From the NCBI GenBank assembly GCA_947446975.1, contig CANFHM010000001.1, positions 62,001 through 126,000 of the forward strand: 64,000 nt of DNA. Direction: 5' to 3'. The translations under genes were made by a program, and so were the position numbers. Numbering within the stretch: position 1 is the first letter of the stretch; each line of letters begins with the position of its first letter. This document shows, piece by piece, positions 23,564 through 61,493 of this stretch. Under the pieces are notes generated by a model that saw only the letters and a list, made by a program, of their open reading frames with translations, was not told the origin of the DNA and did not search any database. The DNA is from Microthrixaceae bacterium. Lineage in GTDB: Bacteria; Actinomycetota; Acidimicrobiia; Acidimicrobiales; Acidimicrobilacustridaceae.

Positions 23564-24769
23564 GTGCGGATCCTCATCACCAACAATCGACTCGCCACGA
23601 GGGCTGGCACGGAGAGCTACGTCGAGACGGTGATGGTCGCGCTCCGTCGACTCGGTCACGATGTCCTCGCGTACTCCCCCGGGTTGGGCGATGTCGCCCG
23701 CTCGTTGCGACACAACGGATTCGTGGTGCACGACGACCCATCGGAGTTGCCCCCGGGGATCGATGTCATCCACGGTCAGCACACGAACGCCGTCGCCATG
23801 GTGCGCCGATATCTGCCCTCGGTACCGCTCGTGTTCGTCTCGCATTCCTGGTTCATCCCGGCGGAGGATCCGTGCATCGACATCGGTCCGGCAGCACTCG
23901 TCGCGCTCAACGACAGGATCGAGGCACGCCTTCGGTCGATGGCGATGGCAACGTCGGTACCGGTCCATCGACTCCGGCAACCGATCGAGATCGGGTTCTT
24001 CGACGGTCAACGTCGACCACCTGCGGCCAGGCCCGAGACAGCGCTGCTCGTGTCTCGCAAGATCGCCGGCAGATTGGACTCGATCCGAATGGCATGCGAC
24101 CGCGCCGGCATCGAGCTGCGGACGCTGCGGGGGGAATCGGCTGACCCCCGACTCGAGATGGCGGCCGCCGACATCGTCATGGCCTCCGGCCGATCGGCGC
24201 TCGAGGCGATGTCGATGGCGAGACCGACGCTGCTCATCGACCAGACCGTCTGCGCCGGCTGGATCACCGAGGGCTCCTGGGCGCAGATCGAGGGGGACGG
24301 ATTCGGAACGGGGAATCCCGTCGATGCCGTCACCGATCTCGACGCCCTGCTGGCGATGTACTCGCCCGAGCTCGGAGTGCAGGCGAGGACGCTCGCGGTT
24401 CATCAGCACGCCGCCCAGGATCACGCCAGCGCGCTCGTCGAGATCTATCGCTCGGTGGCGCCGGCGCCACCCATCGAGGTGGTCGATCCACGGCTGCCGG
24501 GTCTCATCGGGGAGAACTGGTCCCAGGCCCTGGGCATGCAGCTGCTCCGTCGGTCGAACGCAGAGCTCCGGGCCGAGAACTGGGCCCTGCAGCGCCAGCT
24601 CGATCGACTCGATGACACCGTCGGCCGCAGCCCTCGGGTGGTCAGGAGCGGCTCGAATCGGCTCCGTTCGCGATTCTGGTCACGACTCGAGACCTCGCGG
24701 CCGGTGATGCGCATCATCTCCCTCGCGATGGCACTGCGCAGCGCGGCGGGCACGAGCCGCGGAACGTGA
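23564..24769 (+). CDS. GT-B glycosyltransferase-like protein with C-terminal coiled coil
   Basis: A 401-residue protein. Its N-terminus (ILITNNRLATRAGTESYVET) is the nucleotide-sugar/acceptor Rossmann entry of family-4-like glycosyltransferases, and GRSALEAMSMARPTLLID near residue 210 resembles the donor-binding motif of GT-B enzymes. The usual E-x7-E motif is degenerate, so activity is uncertain. Residues 330-365 form a charged coiled coil and the last 30 residues an amphipathic helix. GTG start, with GGAG 8 nt upstream. Codon choice looks less biased than in the flanking housekeeping genes, a possible sign of transfer. A repeat-peptide gene follows 57 bp later. Confidence 0.68.
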   Translation: MRILITNNRLATRAGTESYVETVMVALRRLGHDVLAYSPGLGDVARSLRHNGFVVHDDPSELPPGIDVIHGQHTNAVAMVRRYLPSVPLVFVSHSWFIPAEDPCIDIGPAALVALNDRIEARLRSMAMATSVPVHRLRQPIEIGFFDGQRRPPAARPETALLVSRKIAGRLDSIRMACDRAGIELRTLRGESADPRLEMAAADIVMASGRSALEAMSMARPTLLIDQTVCAGWITEGSWAQIEGDGFGTGNPVDAVTDLDALLAMYSPELGVQARTLAVHQHAAQDHASALVEIYRSVAPAPPIEVVDPRLPGLIGENWSQALGMQLLRRSNAELRAENWALQRQLDRLDDTVGRSPRVVRSGSNRLRSRFWSRLETSRPVMRIISLAMALRSAAGTSRGT

Positions 24770-24826
24770 CATCGTCGGGAGCACCGGGGCTAGCGTCTCC
24801 ATGTCCGAACTCCAAGGAGGCACATC

Positions 24827-24994
24827 ATGACTGGTCCCACCACCCCGCCCCGTATCGCCGGCCCGACCACGCCGCCGCGCATGGCGATCCCCGACACGCC
24901 CCCGCGCATGGCGATCCCCGTCACGCCGCCCCGCGTGGCCGGCCCGGCCGTACCGCCCCGCATGGCGATCCCCGTCACGCCACCGCGGATCTGA
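24827..24994 (+). CDS. Six-repeat Pro/Arg peptide (55 aa), possible peptide precursor
   Basis: A short gene with an excellent ribosome binding site (AAGGAGG, 24814-24820, about 6 nt from ATG). After a one-residue start it consists of six consecutive 9-residue units of the form (A/T)(G/I)Px(T/V)PPR(I/M/V), such as AGPTTPPRM and AIPVTPPRM. The PPR core is invariant in all six units while its codons differ at third positions (CCG/CCC/CCA, CGT/CGC/CGG), so selection has acted on the protein. No signal peptide or membrane helix. It lies between a glycosyltransferase-like gene and a convergent MurC-like ligase. I know no family of this kind. It could be a peptide precursor, a proline-rich antimicrobial or a structural repeat. 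Confidence 0.72.
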   Translation: MTGPTTPPRIAGPTTPPRMAIPDTPPRMAIPVTPPRVAGPAVPPRMAIPVTPPRI

Positions 24995-25001
24995 GTCGTT
25001 C

Positions 25002-25034
25002 GGTGCTCGGGCGGCTCAGAGCCGCTCGAGCACC
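25002..25034. terminator. Bidirectional hairpin terminator inside the Mur ligase 3' end
   Basis: GGTGCTCG (25002-25009) pairs with CGAGCACC (25027-25034) and GCGGCTC (25011-25017) with GAGCCGC (25019-25025), with one G-T wobble between. This near-perfect 33-nt palindrome encodes the last residues and stop of the Mur ligase and follows the repeat-peptide stop by 7 nt, so it probably terminates both. Confidence 0.7.
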
Positions 25035-26467
25035 CACGCCGACACCTCGGCGAGATCATCGACACATCCGGCGATGAGCACGCTGTCTCCCGGAGCGGCC
25101 AGAGCGCTCACTGCATCGGCGGCCTCGGTCCGTGTCTCGATGTACAGCAGTCGCTCCCCCAGCGGTGCGGCCCACTCCCTCGGTGACCGTCGCGGCACGG
25201 GGAATGACTGACGGAGCTCCACCGGCAGGACGATCACCATGTCAGCCTGAGCGAGCGCCTCGATCCATCGACTCCGCCACCGCAGCAGATCAGCGTGGAG
25301 GAACGGCTCGAACACCACGAGCAGGCGTCCGCTGGTCCGGTTCCGCAGTTCGCCCACCACGGCCTCGAGTGCAGCGGGATGCTTGCCGAGGTCGTCGTAG
25401 ACGCAGACCCCGGAAGACTCCCCGACGAACTCGAGTCGACGACTGATCCCGGAGAGCTCGGCGAGTGAGGACGCGGCCTGCTCGCCACTGAGTCCGAACG
25501 CCCGCAGCGACATGAACGCGATCGCGACATCGTCGGCCAGATTCCCGGCGAGGATGTTCGTCTCCACAAGATGACGGGTCCCATCAGCATCGGTCACGCG
25601 CACGACCTCGCCCGACCTGCTGACCGTGTGGGTCCGCCCATCGAAGTCGCGTCCCAGTGCGAGCACCGGTGCCTGCGCGCCCCGAGCCATGGCGCGGAGC
25701 TCCCTCTGCCGACCGAGGATCACCGTCCCCGAACGAGGCGTGTTCTCGAGGAACACCGAGATGTCCCGCCGGTTCTCCGAAAGGCTGCGCCCGAAGATCG
25801 GATGATCGGACCAGGAGTTCGTCAGGACCGCCACATCAGCGGTGACGCGGGCGAGCGATCCATCAGAGTCGTCGACCTCGGCGACGACCGGTCCCGCACC
25901 GAGGCGCACGCCCCCGGCGAAGTTCCTCACCGTCGCACCGATGATCGCCAGGGGGTCGTGGCCGCTGCGGGCCGACGCTGCGGCGATGAGTGCGGCCACG
26001 GTCCCCTTCCCGTGCGACCCCGTGACCCCGATGGCGGGACGCGACGCCATCACCGCTGCGAGCAGGTCGGCCCGGTGATGCAGGCGATCATCGGCGAGTG
26101 CTGCCGCCACCTCGGGGAGTTCCCGCGGAACTGCAGAGCTCGTCACCAGATGTGGCTCGTCGATCCGTCCACCCGACGCATGGTCCTCGCCATGCCCGGC
26201 CAGGACCGTGATGCCCGCATCGACCAGTTCGCGATGGGCGATGTCTCCGTAGAGGTCACACCCGTCCACCCGGGATCCGAGGTGGTCGGCGACGATCGCC
26301 AGCGGGCGCAGCCCCCGGCCACGGATCCCGACCATGTGGAGGTGGAGGCCAGCGAGCGGAGGGAGCGGGTTGACGGGTGGAACGAACATGTCGTCACGCA
26401 GCGGCACGGATGGAGCCTCCCACATGCTCCGGGTTCGATCGGCCGATGGATCTCCGGATCTGACCAT
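25016..26467 (-). CDS. Divergent Mur ligase family protein (MurC-like)
   Basis: An up to 483-residue ATP-dependent ligase of the Mur family. LHMVGIRGRGLRPLA near residue 43 matches the N-terminal Rossmann motif of MurC (HFVGIGGxGM). The P-loop is GSHGKGT (150-156) in place of the MurC GTHGKTT, EVDDSDGS (197-204) matches the EADESDGS block, and YDDLGKHP replaces the MurC YDDYGHHP. These substitutions in conserved positions argue against it being the housekeeping MurC. The start is uncertain: ATGs at 26467, 26425 and 26389 are possible, the last giving a normal 457 residues. It is convergent to the repeat-peptide gene. Substrate unknown. Confidence 0.82.
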   Translation of the reverse strand: MVRSGDPSADRTRSMWEAPSVPLRDDMFVPPVNPLPPLAGLHLHMVGIRGRGLRPLAIVADHLGSRVDGCDLYGDIAHRELVDAGITVLAGHGEDHASGGRIDEPHLVTSSAVPRELPEVAAALADDRLHHRADLLAAVMASRPAIGVTGSHGKGTVAALIAAASARSGHDPLAIIGATVRNFAGGVRLGAGPVVAEVDDSDGSLARVTADVAVLTNSWSDHPIFGRSLSENRRDISVFLENTPRSGTVILGRQRELRAMARGAQAPVLALGRDFDGRTHTVSRSGEVVRVTDADGTRHLVETNILAGNLADDVAIAFMSLRAFGLSGEQAASSLAELSGISRRLEFVGESSGVCVYDDLGKHPAALEAVVGELRNRTSGRLLVVFEPFLHADLLRWRSRWIEALAQADMVIVLPVELRQSFPVPRRSPREWAAPLGERLLYIETRTEAADAVSALAAPGDSVLIAGCVDDLAEVSAWVLERL

Positions 26468-26505: not shown

Positions 26506-26518
26506 TTTACGGTGTTCA
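26506..26518. promoter_or_regulatory. 13-bp inverted-repeat operator candidate (Rieske / Mur intergenic)
   Basis: TTTAC-GGT-GTTCA, an imperfect copy of the TGAAC-N3-GTTCA motif also found upstream of four other catabolic or transport genes. It lies 27 nt before the Rieske ATG, between that gene and the divergent Mur ligase. Confidence 0.5.
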
Positions 26519-26545: not shown

Positions 26546-27760
26546 ATGGACGCAACGCTGGAATCCACCATCAGGCAGCGCATCGAGACGGAGAAGTCGC
26601 GCACCGCGCCGCCACCGGAGGCCATCGCCGTCCCGCTCATCCCCACCGGGAGATACACCGATCCCGCATTCCATGAACTCGAGAAGGAGCGGGTGTTCGC
26701 CCGCAGCTGGCTCTTCGTCGGTCATGAATCGGAGTGGGCGGGCGCCGGCGCCTATCGCCTGATGACCCGATCGGGCGCTCCCATCGTCGTGGTGCGCGGT
26801 GAGGACGACGTGCTCCGGGCGTTCTACAACTCCTGTCGACATCGCGGCGCCCCTGTCACCCGCGACACCTGCGGCACCGCCCGGCGTCTCACCTGCCAGT
26901 ACCACTCGTGGTCCTACGGACTCGACGGTGGCCTCCGCGCTGTTCCGGATGCACGCAGCTTCGCCGGGCTCGACACGGAGGCGCTGGCGCTCGTGCCGGT
27001 GCGCTGCGAGGTCTGGGACGGCTGGGTGTTCATCAACGAGGACATCGATGCCCGACCGCTCGTCGAGTTCCTCGGTCCGCTCGCCGAGCAGATGAGCGAA
27101 CTCGACGGCCCCGTCATGCGCGCTGTCGGCAGCCAGGTGCACCATCTGGCCTGTAACTGGAAGCTCATGGTGGACGCCTTCCTCGAGGTGTATCACGTGC
27201 GAACCGTGCATCCCGACAACGCCGCGCTGCTCTACAACGACCAATCGGTCACCGTCTCGATGCTGCCCAACGGCCACAGTCGTCTCTCGGTCGAGAAGCA
27301 CGACATGTTCCGCGACATGCCTCTCGTGTCCGAGGAGAACGACAACCCGGCGGTGCCGCTGCTGTGGCGCCAGACCTCCACGTCCTACGGCATCTTCCCC
27401 AATCTCGTCGTCCCGATGGACACCGGGGCGTTCACGTTCCTGTGCATGTGGCCCACCAGCGACACCACCACGGACCTCGAACTGCGGTGGTACGCCCCGG
27501 CGTGGGCGGGCGAGGAGATCCCCCAGGAGCATCTCGATCGCATGGCGCTGTTCGACACCGTGATGGCGCAGGACACCGCCAACATGGCGCCCATCCAGGC
27601 CTCGATCTCCTCGCCGGGTGCTCGTCCTTTCCAGATCGGCTGGCACGAACGTCTCATCCACCATTTCCAGCGAGCGGTCGATCTCGCGATCGGGCCCGAT
27701 CGTCTGCCCGCGGGCACTGCGGTGTCCGATGCCCTCGACGGCTTCGTCGAGACCGCCTGA
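26546..27760 (+). CDS. Rieske non-heme iron oxygenase, alpha subunit
   Basis: A 404-residue ring-hydroxylating or related oxygenase. The Rieske [2Fe-2S] ligands are exact: Cys97, His99, Cys117 and His120 (CxH-x17-CxxH). The mononuclear iron His pair is His217 and His222 (EVYHVRTVH), and a distal Asp is expected near the C-terminal helix. ATG at 26546 was chosen for its GAGGGGG site 4 nt upstream. No small subunit, ferredoxin or reductase gene is next to it. A lipoprotein gene follows 20 nt later. Its substrate is unknown; the operator and the surrounding CoA ligases, SDRs and P450 suggest an aromatic, steroid or terpenoid compound. Confidence 0.92.
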   Translation: MDATLESTIRQRIETEKSRTAPPPEAIAVPLIPTGRYTDPAFHELEKERVFARSWLFVGHESEWAGAGAYRLMTRSGAPIVVVRGEDDVLRAFYNSCRHRGAPVTRDTCGTARRLTCQYHSWSYGLDGGLRAVPDARSFAGLDTEALALVPVRCEVWDGWVFINEDIDARPLVEFLGPLAEQMSELDGPVMRAVGSQVHHLACNWKLMVDAFLEVYHVRTVHPDNAALLYNDQSVTVSMLPNGHSRLSVEKHDMFRDMPLVSEENDNPAVPLLWRQTSTSYGIFPNLVVPMDTGAFTFLCMWPTSDTTTDLELRWYAPAWAGEEIPQEHLDRMALFDTVMAQDTANMAPIQASISSPGARPFQIGWHERLIHHFQRAVDLAIGPDRLPAGTAVSDALDGFVETA

Positions 27761-47671: not shown

Positions 47672-48517
47672 TCAGCCGGGGAGGATGGACCCGATGAAGG
47701 GCGCATCGGCGGCACGGGTGCCGTCGAGTTCGATGAACCATTCGGTGCCGAACGCCGCGGTGAACACCTCGGTGGGCATCTTGAAGAAGAAGGAGTCGGG
47801 TCCGATCTGCGAGCGATGGGCGGCCATGGCGGCCCGTTTGGTGTCGATCGCCGAGGACACGTCGACGGCATGGGTGATGAGCGCCTCGGGCGAACCGAAC
47901 TCGCCGCGCTCGGCGGCCTCGGCCCGGCGCTTCATCTGCTCGATGGTCTCGCCCTCGAGCTCGGCCTCCACATCCTCGGCGAACTCGGCGGCCATCTCGG
48001 CGTTCTCCGACATCTGCCGCAGGATGCGGTCCCGGTTCATCGTCGACTGGAAGACCTGATCGACCCCGGCCAGCTCGGCGGCGCGACGCCCCACGCGATG
48101 GACCTGGATGTGATCGGGATGGCCGTACCCGCCATGGGAGTCGTAGATGGTGAGCACATCGGCATCGAACCGCCGAAGGATCTCGGCGAGTCGTTGCGAG
48201 GCCTCCTCGACATCGGCCTGCCAGAAGCAGGCGGGGTTGTCGTTGGAGGGTTCGCCGATCATCCCGCTGTCCTCGTAGCCGAGGAACTCCACCTGGTGCA
48301 GACCGAGGATCTCGGCGGCCCGATGGGTCTCGACCACGCGCCGCTCCCAGAGCTGCTCGCCCTCGGCCAGGACGCCGGGCTGGGGTTCGCCCTTCTCGCC
48401 GCGGGTGGCGGTGACCAGCACCACCCGATGTCCCGCGGCGGCGGCGAGGGCCATCGTGCCGCCGGTGGCGATGGCCTCATCATCGGGATGGGCATGGAAG
48501 CACACGAGCGTGGTCAT
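47672..48517 (-). CDS. PIG-L family deacetylase (Mca/MshB-like)
   Basis: A 281-residue zinc-dependent LmbE/PIG-L deacetylase. HAHPDDEAIATGG (residues 8-20) and YGHPDHIQVH near residue 132 supply the metal ligands. It resembles mycothiol-S-conjugate amidase Mca and the mycothiol biosynthesis deacetylase MshB, so detoxification through mycothiol conjugates is plausible. ATG at 48517 overlaps the CoA-transferase stop by one base (TGATG). Its family alone does not separate the two activities. Confidence 0.9.
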   Translation of the reverse strand: MTTLVCFHAHPDDEAIATGGTMALAAAAGHRVVLVTATRGEKGEPQPGVLAEGEQLWERRVVETHRAAEILGLHQVEFLGYEDSGMIGEPSNDNPACFWQADVEEASQRLAEILRRFDADVLTIYDSHGGYGHPDHIQVHRVGRRAAELAGVDQVFQSTMNRDRILRQMSENAEMAAEFAEDVEAELEGETIEQMKRRAEAAERGEFGSPEALITHAVDVSSAIDTKRAAMAAHRSQIGPDSFFFKMPTEVFTAAFGTEWFIELDGTRAADAPFIGSILPG

Positions 48518-60800: not shown

Positions 60801-61445
60801 CCCCACGGCTACGAGGGTCAGGGTCCCGAGCATTCCTCGGCCCGCATCGAGCGCTTCCTCACGCTGTCGGCCGGCGACAACATCCAGGTGTGCAACGCCA
60901 CCACGGCGGCGCAGTTCTTCCATCTCCTGCGTCGTCAGGTGCGTCGCGAGATCCGCAAGCCGCTCATCGTGTTCACCCCGAAGTCGGGCCTTCGCGCCAA
61001 GACCTCGCGGTCGCCGGTGTCCGAGCTCATCCACGGCTCGTTCCAGGAGGTCCTCGACGACTCCGGCGTCACCGATCCGACCGCCGTGCGCCGTGTGGTG
61101 TTCGCCTCCGGCAAGGTCGGCGTCGAGGCCCAGGCCGAACGCGATCTCCGTGAGGCCCCCGTCGCCGTCGTCCGGGTCGAGCAGCTCTACCCGTGGCCCT
61201 ATGACGATGTGGCCGCCATCCTCGACAAGTACTCCAACGCCGATGAGATCGTCTGGCTGCAGGAGGAACCCGAGAACATGGGCGCCTGGAACCACATCAA
61301 GGGTCGCCTGTACGAGGCCCATGAGAACACCCACCACATCCGTCGGGTGAGCCGTCAGGAATCGGCCAGCCCGGCCACCGGGAACCTCTCGATCCACAAG
61401 GCCGAACTGCACGACCTCATGGAGAGCGCCCTCGGAGACATCTGA
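57852..61445 (+). CDS. kgd: Multifunctional 2-oxoglutarate decarboxylase/dehydrogenase (Kgd)
   Basis: A 1197-residue actinobacterial enzyme in which an E2-like domain is fused to the ThDP-dependent E1. Residues 1-35 are the E1 N-terminal segment (WLVDEMFEQYR); an Ala/Thr/Pro-rich linker near 45-80 follows. The E2-like acyltransferase domain (to about residue 330) has HRIIQGAESG; the E1 part contains GMAHRGRLNVLVN near residue 520 and the ThDP motif in GDDPEAVVRVARL to YRRHGHNEGDD. It catalyses 2-oxoglutarate decarboxylation, carboligation and, with partner E2/E3, dehydrogenation in the TCA cycle. GarA-type regulation is likely from the family. GTG start; a strong hairpin follows the repeat at the stop. 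Confidence 0.98.
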   Translation: MADDSSPQITGPNAWLVDEMFEQYRTNPDSVSESWKEFFHGYRPTAAPRSVATGTTGTAPAAAPAPATAAASSADPAAETGTPLRGAAARIVANMESSLSVPTATSFREVPAKLLEVNRKTINSFLTRSRSGKVSFTHIIGYAIVRAITEAAPVMNSAYHEGADGKPYVVKHEHLNLGLAVDQEKSDGTRSLLVPCIKAADTLDFAGFLDAYEEIIRKVRSNKLTPDDFAGVTVSLTNPGTIGTVQSVPRLMPGQGVIVGVGSLDYPAAYQGADPATLAGLGLSKVMTITSTYDHRIIQGAESGLFLKRVHELLMGQHEFYEHVFRSLGVPYEAVEWGRDTNAFGREEAMLEKQMNVQTLINMHRVRGHLISDLDPLEAEEPYLHPELDPASYGLTIWDLDRVFLTGGIAGRKHMKLDEILDVLRDAYCRTIGIEYMHIQDPVEKRWIQQQVEGVTFSLTTEEKRHILDRLNAAEALEKFLATKYLGQKRFGIEGGESAIPLLDAVLSEAADASMHSAVVGMAHRGRLNVLVNIVGKSHEQLFTEFEGNIDPESIQGSGDVKYHLGQTGTFTSPAGNTMQVELAANPSHLEAVDPVVVGMARAKMDRIEPPGNYPVLSVLVHGDAAFAGQGVVAETLNLSDIRGYRVGGTIHVIINNQLGFTTNPTEARSSEYPTDVAKMIQAPIFHVNGDDPEAVVRVARLAFAYRQQFHKDVVIDMVCYRRHGHNEGDDPSYTQPLMYKRIEARRSVRKLYTEALVRKGDISLEEAEAALDDFQTRLQAALDETRSHDAPAPLESAPERHYEGVRPHVDTGVSQETLDAVFAQLEFVPEGFTVHPKLAKQFEGRHTMYTVDGEVDWALGEAFAIGSLLHEGTSVRLTGEDSRRGTFSHRHAALIDYETGRDIVPLEGTARDGAKFWIYDSLLSEFAALGFEYGYSVDNKDALVLWEGQFGDFMNGAQVIIDQFIVAAEDKWGQTSGLVMLLPHGYEGQGPEHSSARIERFLTLSAGDNIQVCNATTAAQFFHLLRRQVRREIRKPLIVFTPKSGLRAKTSRSPVSELIHGSFQEVLDDSGVTDPTAVRRVVFASGKVGVEAQAERDLREAPVAVVRVEQLYPWPYDDVAAILDKYSNADEIVWLQEEPENMGAWNHIKGRLYEAHENTHHIRRVSRQESASPATGNLSIHKAELHDLMESALGDI

Positions 61446-61478
61446 TCCGGAGACATCTGATCCGGAGACATCTGATCC
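61434..61478. repeat. Three 15-bp tandem repeats over the kgd stop
   Basis: Three identical 15-bp units (GGAGACATCTGATCC) and a partial fourth run from the last codons of kgd; the TGA (61443) is in the first unit. The 15-bp period puts TGAs in the same frame at 61458 and 61473. Confidence 0.9.
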
Positions 61479-61493
61479 GGCGACATCTCCTGG

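Follow-up and report, generated by a model that had tools for sequence, protein, structure and literature searches.

Proline-rich antimicrobial peptides such as Bac7, oncocin, apidaecin and drosocin are made by animals as secreted precursors, and we know of no bacterial counterparts. The leaderless bacteriocins of Actinomycetota are aureocin A53-like globular helical peptides. Class II SH3 ligands follow the pattern PxxPxR; we know of no bacterial PxxP-binding SH3 partner. Taxon-restricted bacterial mini-proteins and tandem-repeat disordered proteins have been described (PMC2602986, PMC9879509), as have leaderless bacteriocins of Actinomycetota (PMC11580447).

The repeat ORF described here lies in a window of 64,000 nucleotides, the whole stretch of DNA that was analysed. 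It resembles the mini-proteins and repeat proteins of PMC2602986 and PMC9879509 in being short, lineage-restricted and disordered, with in-frame gain and loss of units; unlike those systems, its repeat makes up almost the whole protein, its composition is Pro/Arg, and it has a promoter-like box of its own. With Bac7, oncocin, apidaecin and drosocin it shares small size, positive charge, richness in Pro and Arg and an expected extended conformation, but it has no PRP motif and no evident secretion signal. Like the leaderless bacteriocins of PMC11580447, it encodes a short cationic peptide without a leader in an actinomycetote; unlike them it is a proline repeat, and no dedicated export or immunity gene was recognised beside it. 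All six units in the window fit PxxPPR and so resemble class II SH3 ligands, while some units of the orthologues deviate (PPVSPR).

The ORF encodes MTGPTTPPRIAGPTTPPRMAIPDTPPRMAIPVTPPRVAGPAVPPRMAIPVTPPRI, in which the repeat units begin at residue 4 (Table 1). An earlier note on this DNA had described a 55-codon frame with an AAGGAGG site and six units; coordinates, length and site are all correct, as is its count of five PPR spellings among the six units (CCGCCCCGT, CCGCCGCGC, CCCCCGCGC, CCGCCCCGC twice and CCACCGCGG). The array outscores every other tandem repeat in the window (Tandem Repeats Finder score 138, period 27). At 61433-61488 a 15-nt motif is repeated in tandem almost perfectly (3.7 copies, 97% matches). 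A single-sequence AlphaFold2 model of the peptide has neither helix nor strand (pTM 0.17). Among the peptides of the three species now known to carry the gene, net charge is +3 to +7 and proline content 33-36%, and no leader, signal or hydrophobic segment was evident when the three sequences were read by eye.

Table 1. Features at and around the repeat ORF (window coordinates)
Feature	Position	Strand	Basis
GT4-like glycosyltransferase	23564..24769	+	Pfam PF13439, E 2.4e-5, below curated cut-off
TAGCGT, promoter-like -10 box (TANNNT)	24791..24796	+	position -36; no other TANNNT in the 90 nt before the ATG
AAGGAGG ribosome-binding site	24814..24820	+	sequence; GGAG kept in 3/3 species
Pro/Arg repeat microprotein, 55 aa, six 9-residue units	24827..24994	+	ORF, codon analysis, orthologues
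15-bp hairpin after stop	25002..25034	.	z = -5.6; near-identical in three species
MurC-like ligase, convergent	25016..26467	-	Pfam, NCBIfam

Searching the genus and then comparing gene order turned up two orthologues with the same flanking neighbors, MAVPTTPPRMAVPGTPPRVSPPVSPRLSPLVPPRASVPVPPHVSPPVSPRLSPDTPPRLSPRVPPRA (genome G011) and MAIPTTPPRVSPPVSPRLSPPVSPRA (G008). The records are WLCQ01000120.1 (Actinomycetota bacterium UFOp-RE-14apr17-265) and CANFQA010000019.1 (Microthrixaceae bacterium Jr-14may18-219); the isolate names indicate that the carrier species are probably of freshwater origin. One orthologue has 67 aa in mixed 8- and 9-residue units, and the other has 26 aa in three units and consists of repeat units only, so that unit number is 3, 6 and about 8 across the three species. 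All three genes preserve the start codon, reading frame, stop and ribosome-binding site, and in each the stop falls one residue past an Arg. Neither orthologue has a frameshift or nonsense change, so the gene survives the refuting condition that the earlier note had set, and the proposal of a peptide-coding gene with orthologues is borne out. The PPR core that had been called invariant is so in this genome only: the core of the orthologues reads [P/S]-P-[R/H]-hydrophobic-[A/S], where Ser in place of Pro and His in place of Arg give SPR and PPH, and their units of 8 as well as 9 residues make the strict 9-residue PPR pattern a local property of this genome.

The sole TANNNT within 90 nt upstream of the ATG stands at -36 here and at -37 in both orthologues, in DNA that has otherwise diverged (15-19 of 70 bases match at -90 to -21, ungapped, among the three species). 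The motif is rare, with 33 copies on the two strands of the window (a frequency of 2.6e-4 per position per strand); it also precedes the gene starts at 26546, 36925 and 49665 by 34-39 nt. Boxes were noted for example at 26508, 36890 and 49699, several of them 34-39 nt ahead of gene starts. This suggests that the organism uses TANNNT as its main -10 element. The fixed distance, the rarity and the presence before other genes support a promoter belonging to the peptide gene itself, which would give a leader of about 24 nt. AGGAG at comparable closeness precedes only 0.7% of the ATGs in the window. The hairpin after the stop overlaps the stop of the convergent ligase gene and is a possible terminator, although it has no T run. 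A role as leader peptide for a downstream gene was rejected, the next same-strand gene, near 26546, having its own TANNNT box. Taken together, the kept start, frame, stop and ribosome-binding site despite the diverged upstream DNA, the TANNNT box and the hairpin point to a real gene with its own promoter, and a narrowly distributed orphan gene of this kind is the most likely identity of 24827-24994.

Selection on the sequence was examined by comparing the five complete units. In the sense frame 29 of 55 codon differences are synonymous (53%), against a mean synonymous fraction of 0.22 under column permutation (p = 0.001). The best antisense frame (frame 1) comes near this, with 22 of 48 (46%), so the synonymous test alone leaves the selected strand and frame ambiguous. 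On its own it falls short of proving the earlier argument that the peptide and not the DNA is conserved. Over the first 17 codons, amino-acid-changing and silent differences from the G011 orthologue are about equally frequent, and purifying selection is thus weak. An antisense ORF at 24790-25065 was also considered and rejected; its repeat sits in a different frame in the orthologues.

The search for relatives covered 61 genomes with the single sequence, 397 genomes of the order with a period-27 PPR pattern, and 395 genomes of the class with a three-row profile. The 61 genomes held no homologue beyond the genus. The order yielded four look-alikes, all rejected as intergenic, antisense or within another frame and lacking a ribosome-binding site, and none comparable. 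The class yielded weak matches, the closest in G612, and no comparable gene. Because order and class were each sampled with only some 400 genomes, distant copies could have escaped notice. The peptide matched nothing in plasmids, phages or viral contigs, and neither the literature searches nor Pfam, NCBIfam and PHROGs gave a matching family, in agreement with the earlier note; matches to circumsporozoite protein were set aside as a low-complexity artefact. The possibility of a scattered DNA repeat was likewise dropped: in 21 genomes only the syntenic locus matches at length, and with no scattered copies elsewhere in the genus the array is not a mobile DNA repeat. An intergenic 27-nt repeat reading PPRLVVPRDPPRVVVPRDPPR, without a ribosome-binding site, lies on the minus strand near contig position 150 of G276:C137 (locus L107); it shows that DNA repeats, too, can be a source of such peptides.

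The serious rival is a young, nearly neutral ORF: a GC-rich tandem repeat between convergent genes that acquired a promoter and a start codon and whose translation serves no selected function. Intergenic repeats of similar kind that lack a ribosome-binding site, as in G276 and G023, speak for it, as do the large changes in copy number and core; the rival stays serious because of the sequence drift and because only three species carry the gene. Set against it are the retention of start, frame, ribosome-binding site, stop and promoter-like box while the DNA between has diverged, in species whose neighbor proteins are 72-78% identical. On balance we consider it unlikely, yet well ahead of the alternatives that follow.

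That the locus acts as RNA, small or antisense to the convergent ligase gene, with the ORF incidental or a second function, is improbable. The promoter-like box and a unit some 230 nt long, whose terminal hairpin lies within the end of the ligase gene, would suit it; the reading frame is nevertheless kept, Rfam gave no meaningful match, and the repeat region shows no conserved folding, with z at -2.2 in this genome as against -0.35 and +0.15 in the two orthologues. We give slightly less credence to a leaderless proline-rich, ribosome-targeting antimicrobial peptide released against neighbors, an idea raised by the earlier note. The peptide is Pro/Arg-rich and cationic, one orthologue has PPRL and SPRL stretches, and an ABC-2 exporter lies upstream. 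The likeness is nonetheless one of composition: no secretion signal or leader is evident in the three sequences, no immunity gene was recognised, there is no PRP motif, a comparison with solved proline-rich peptides gave no match, and the exporter is common to seven congeners without the peptide. The other earlier idea, a multi-core RiPP precursor whose units are excised and modified, is the least credible of all, since despite the repeated units with Arg as a possible cut mark no leader is evident, the 26-aa orthologue is made of nothing but units, unit length is 8 or 9 residues, the neighbors scanned with Pfam include no RiPP maturation enzyme, dedicated peptidase or dedicated export gene, and the upstream M24 peptidase belongs to a flank common to congeners without the peptide.

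Domain matches confirmed both neighbors named earlier, the GT4-like glycosyltransferase and the MurC-like ligase, which in the two other peptide-carrying species are 72-75% and 76-78% identical, respectively. The ligase is a second, MurC-like one, and the ligase matches of most congeners share about 30% identity with it. The upstream ABC ATPase and permease genes are common to the seven further congeners that are without the peptide. In six of these seven, whose contigs are long enough, the permease is followed by a PIG-L relative, directly or after one short stretch, while here the PIG-L gene is at 47672; glycosyltransferase, peptide and ligase thus belong to a segment, about 24 kb long, which those genomes lack at this position. 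The segment (23540-47660), lying between permease and PIG-L genes that are adjacent in other species of the genus, also holds an oxygenase, a branched-chain amino acid transporter, two RPE65-family enzymes, a P450 and amidohydrolases. Of 21 genomes, the three that carry the peptide are also the only ones in which the glycosyltransferase and a close form of the ligase were found, but this co-occurrence spans the whole segment and by itself does not tie the peptide to its neighbors.

The reading that we favor, tentatively and at somewhat short of even chances, is that of a real orphan gene with a transcript of its own, whose product is a disordered, polycationic microprotein of polyproline-II type that has no leader and serves as a multivalent weak ligand in the cytosol. 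Units of the form P-x-x-[PS]-P-R-hydrophobic-[AS] would take up the polyproline-II conformation, and their number would change through in-frame gain and loss. The product would remain cytosolic, where each exposed PPR unit could dock on an acidic protein surface or nucleic acid; affinity would scale with unit number, and the exact number would be of little importance. It is improbable that such leaderless Pro/Arg repeat microproteins form a new bacterial family that binds the ribosome or another core machine in the manner of the animal proline-rich peptides, with a strength set by the number of units.

The peptide is new as a family, though of an ordinary kind. The gene is almost pure repeat, carries a promoter-like box and varies in copy number between sister species; as such it could help to explain the origin and maintenance of repeat microproteins. 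Should the peptide prove to have an intracellular target, bacteria would possess an equivalent of the proline-rich peptide ligands.
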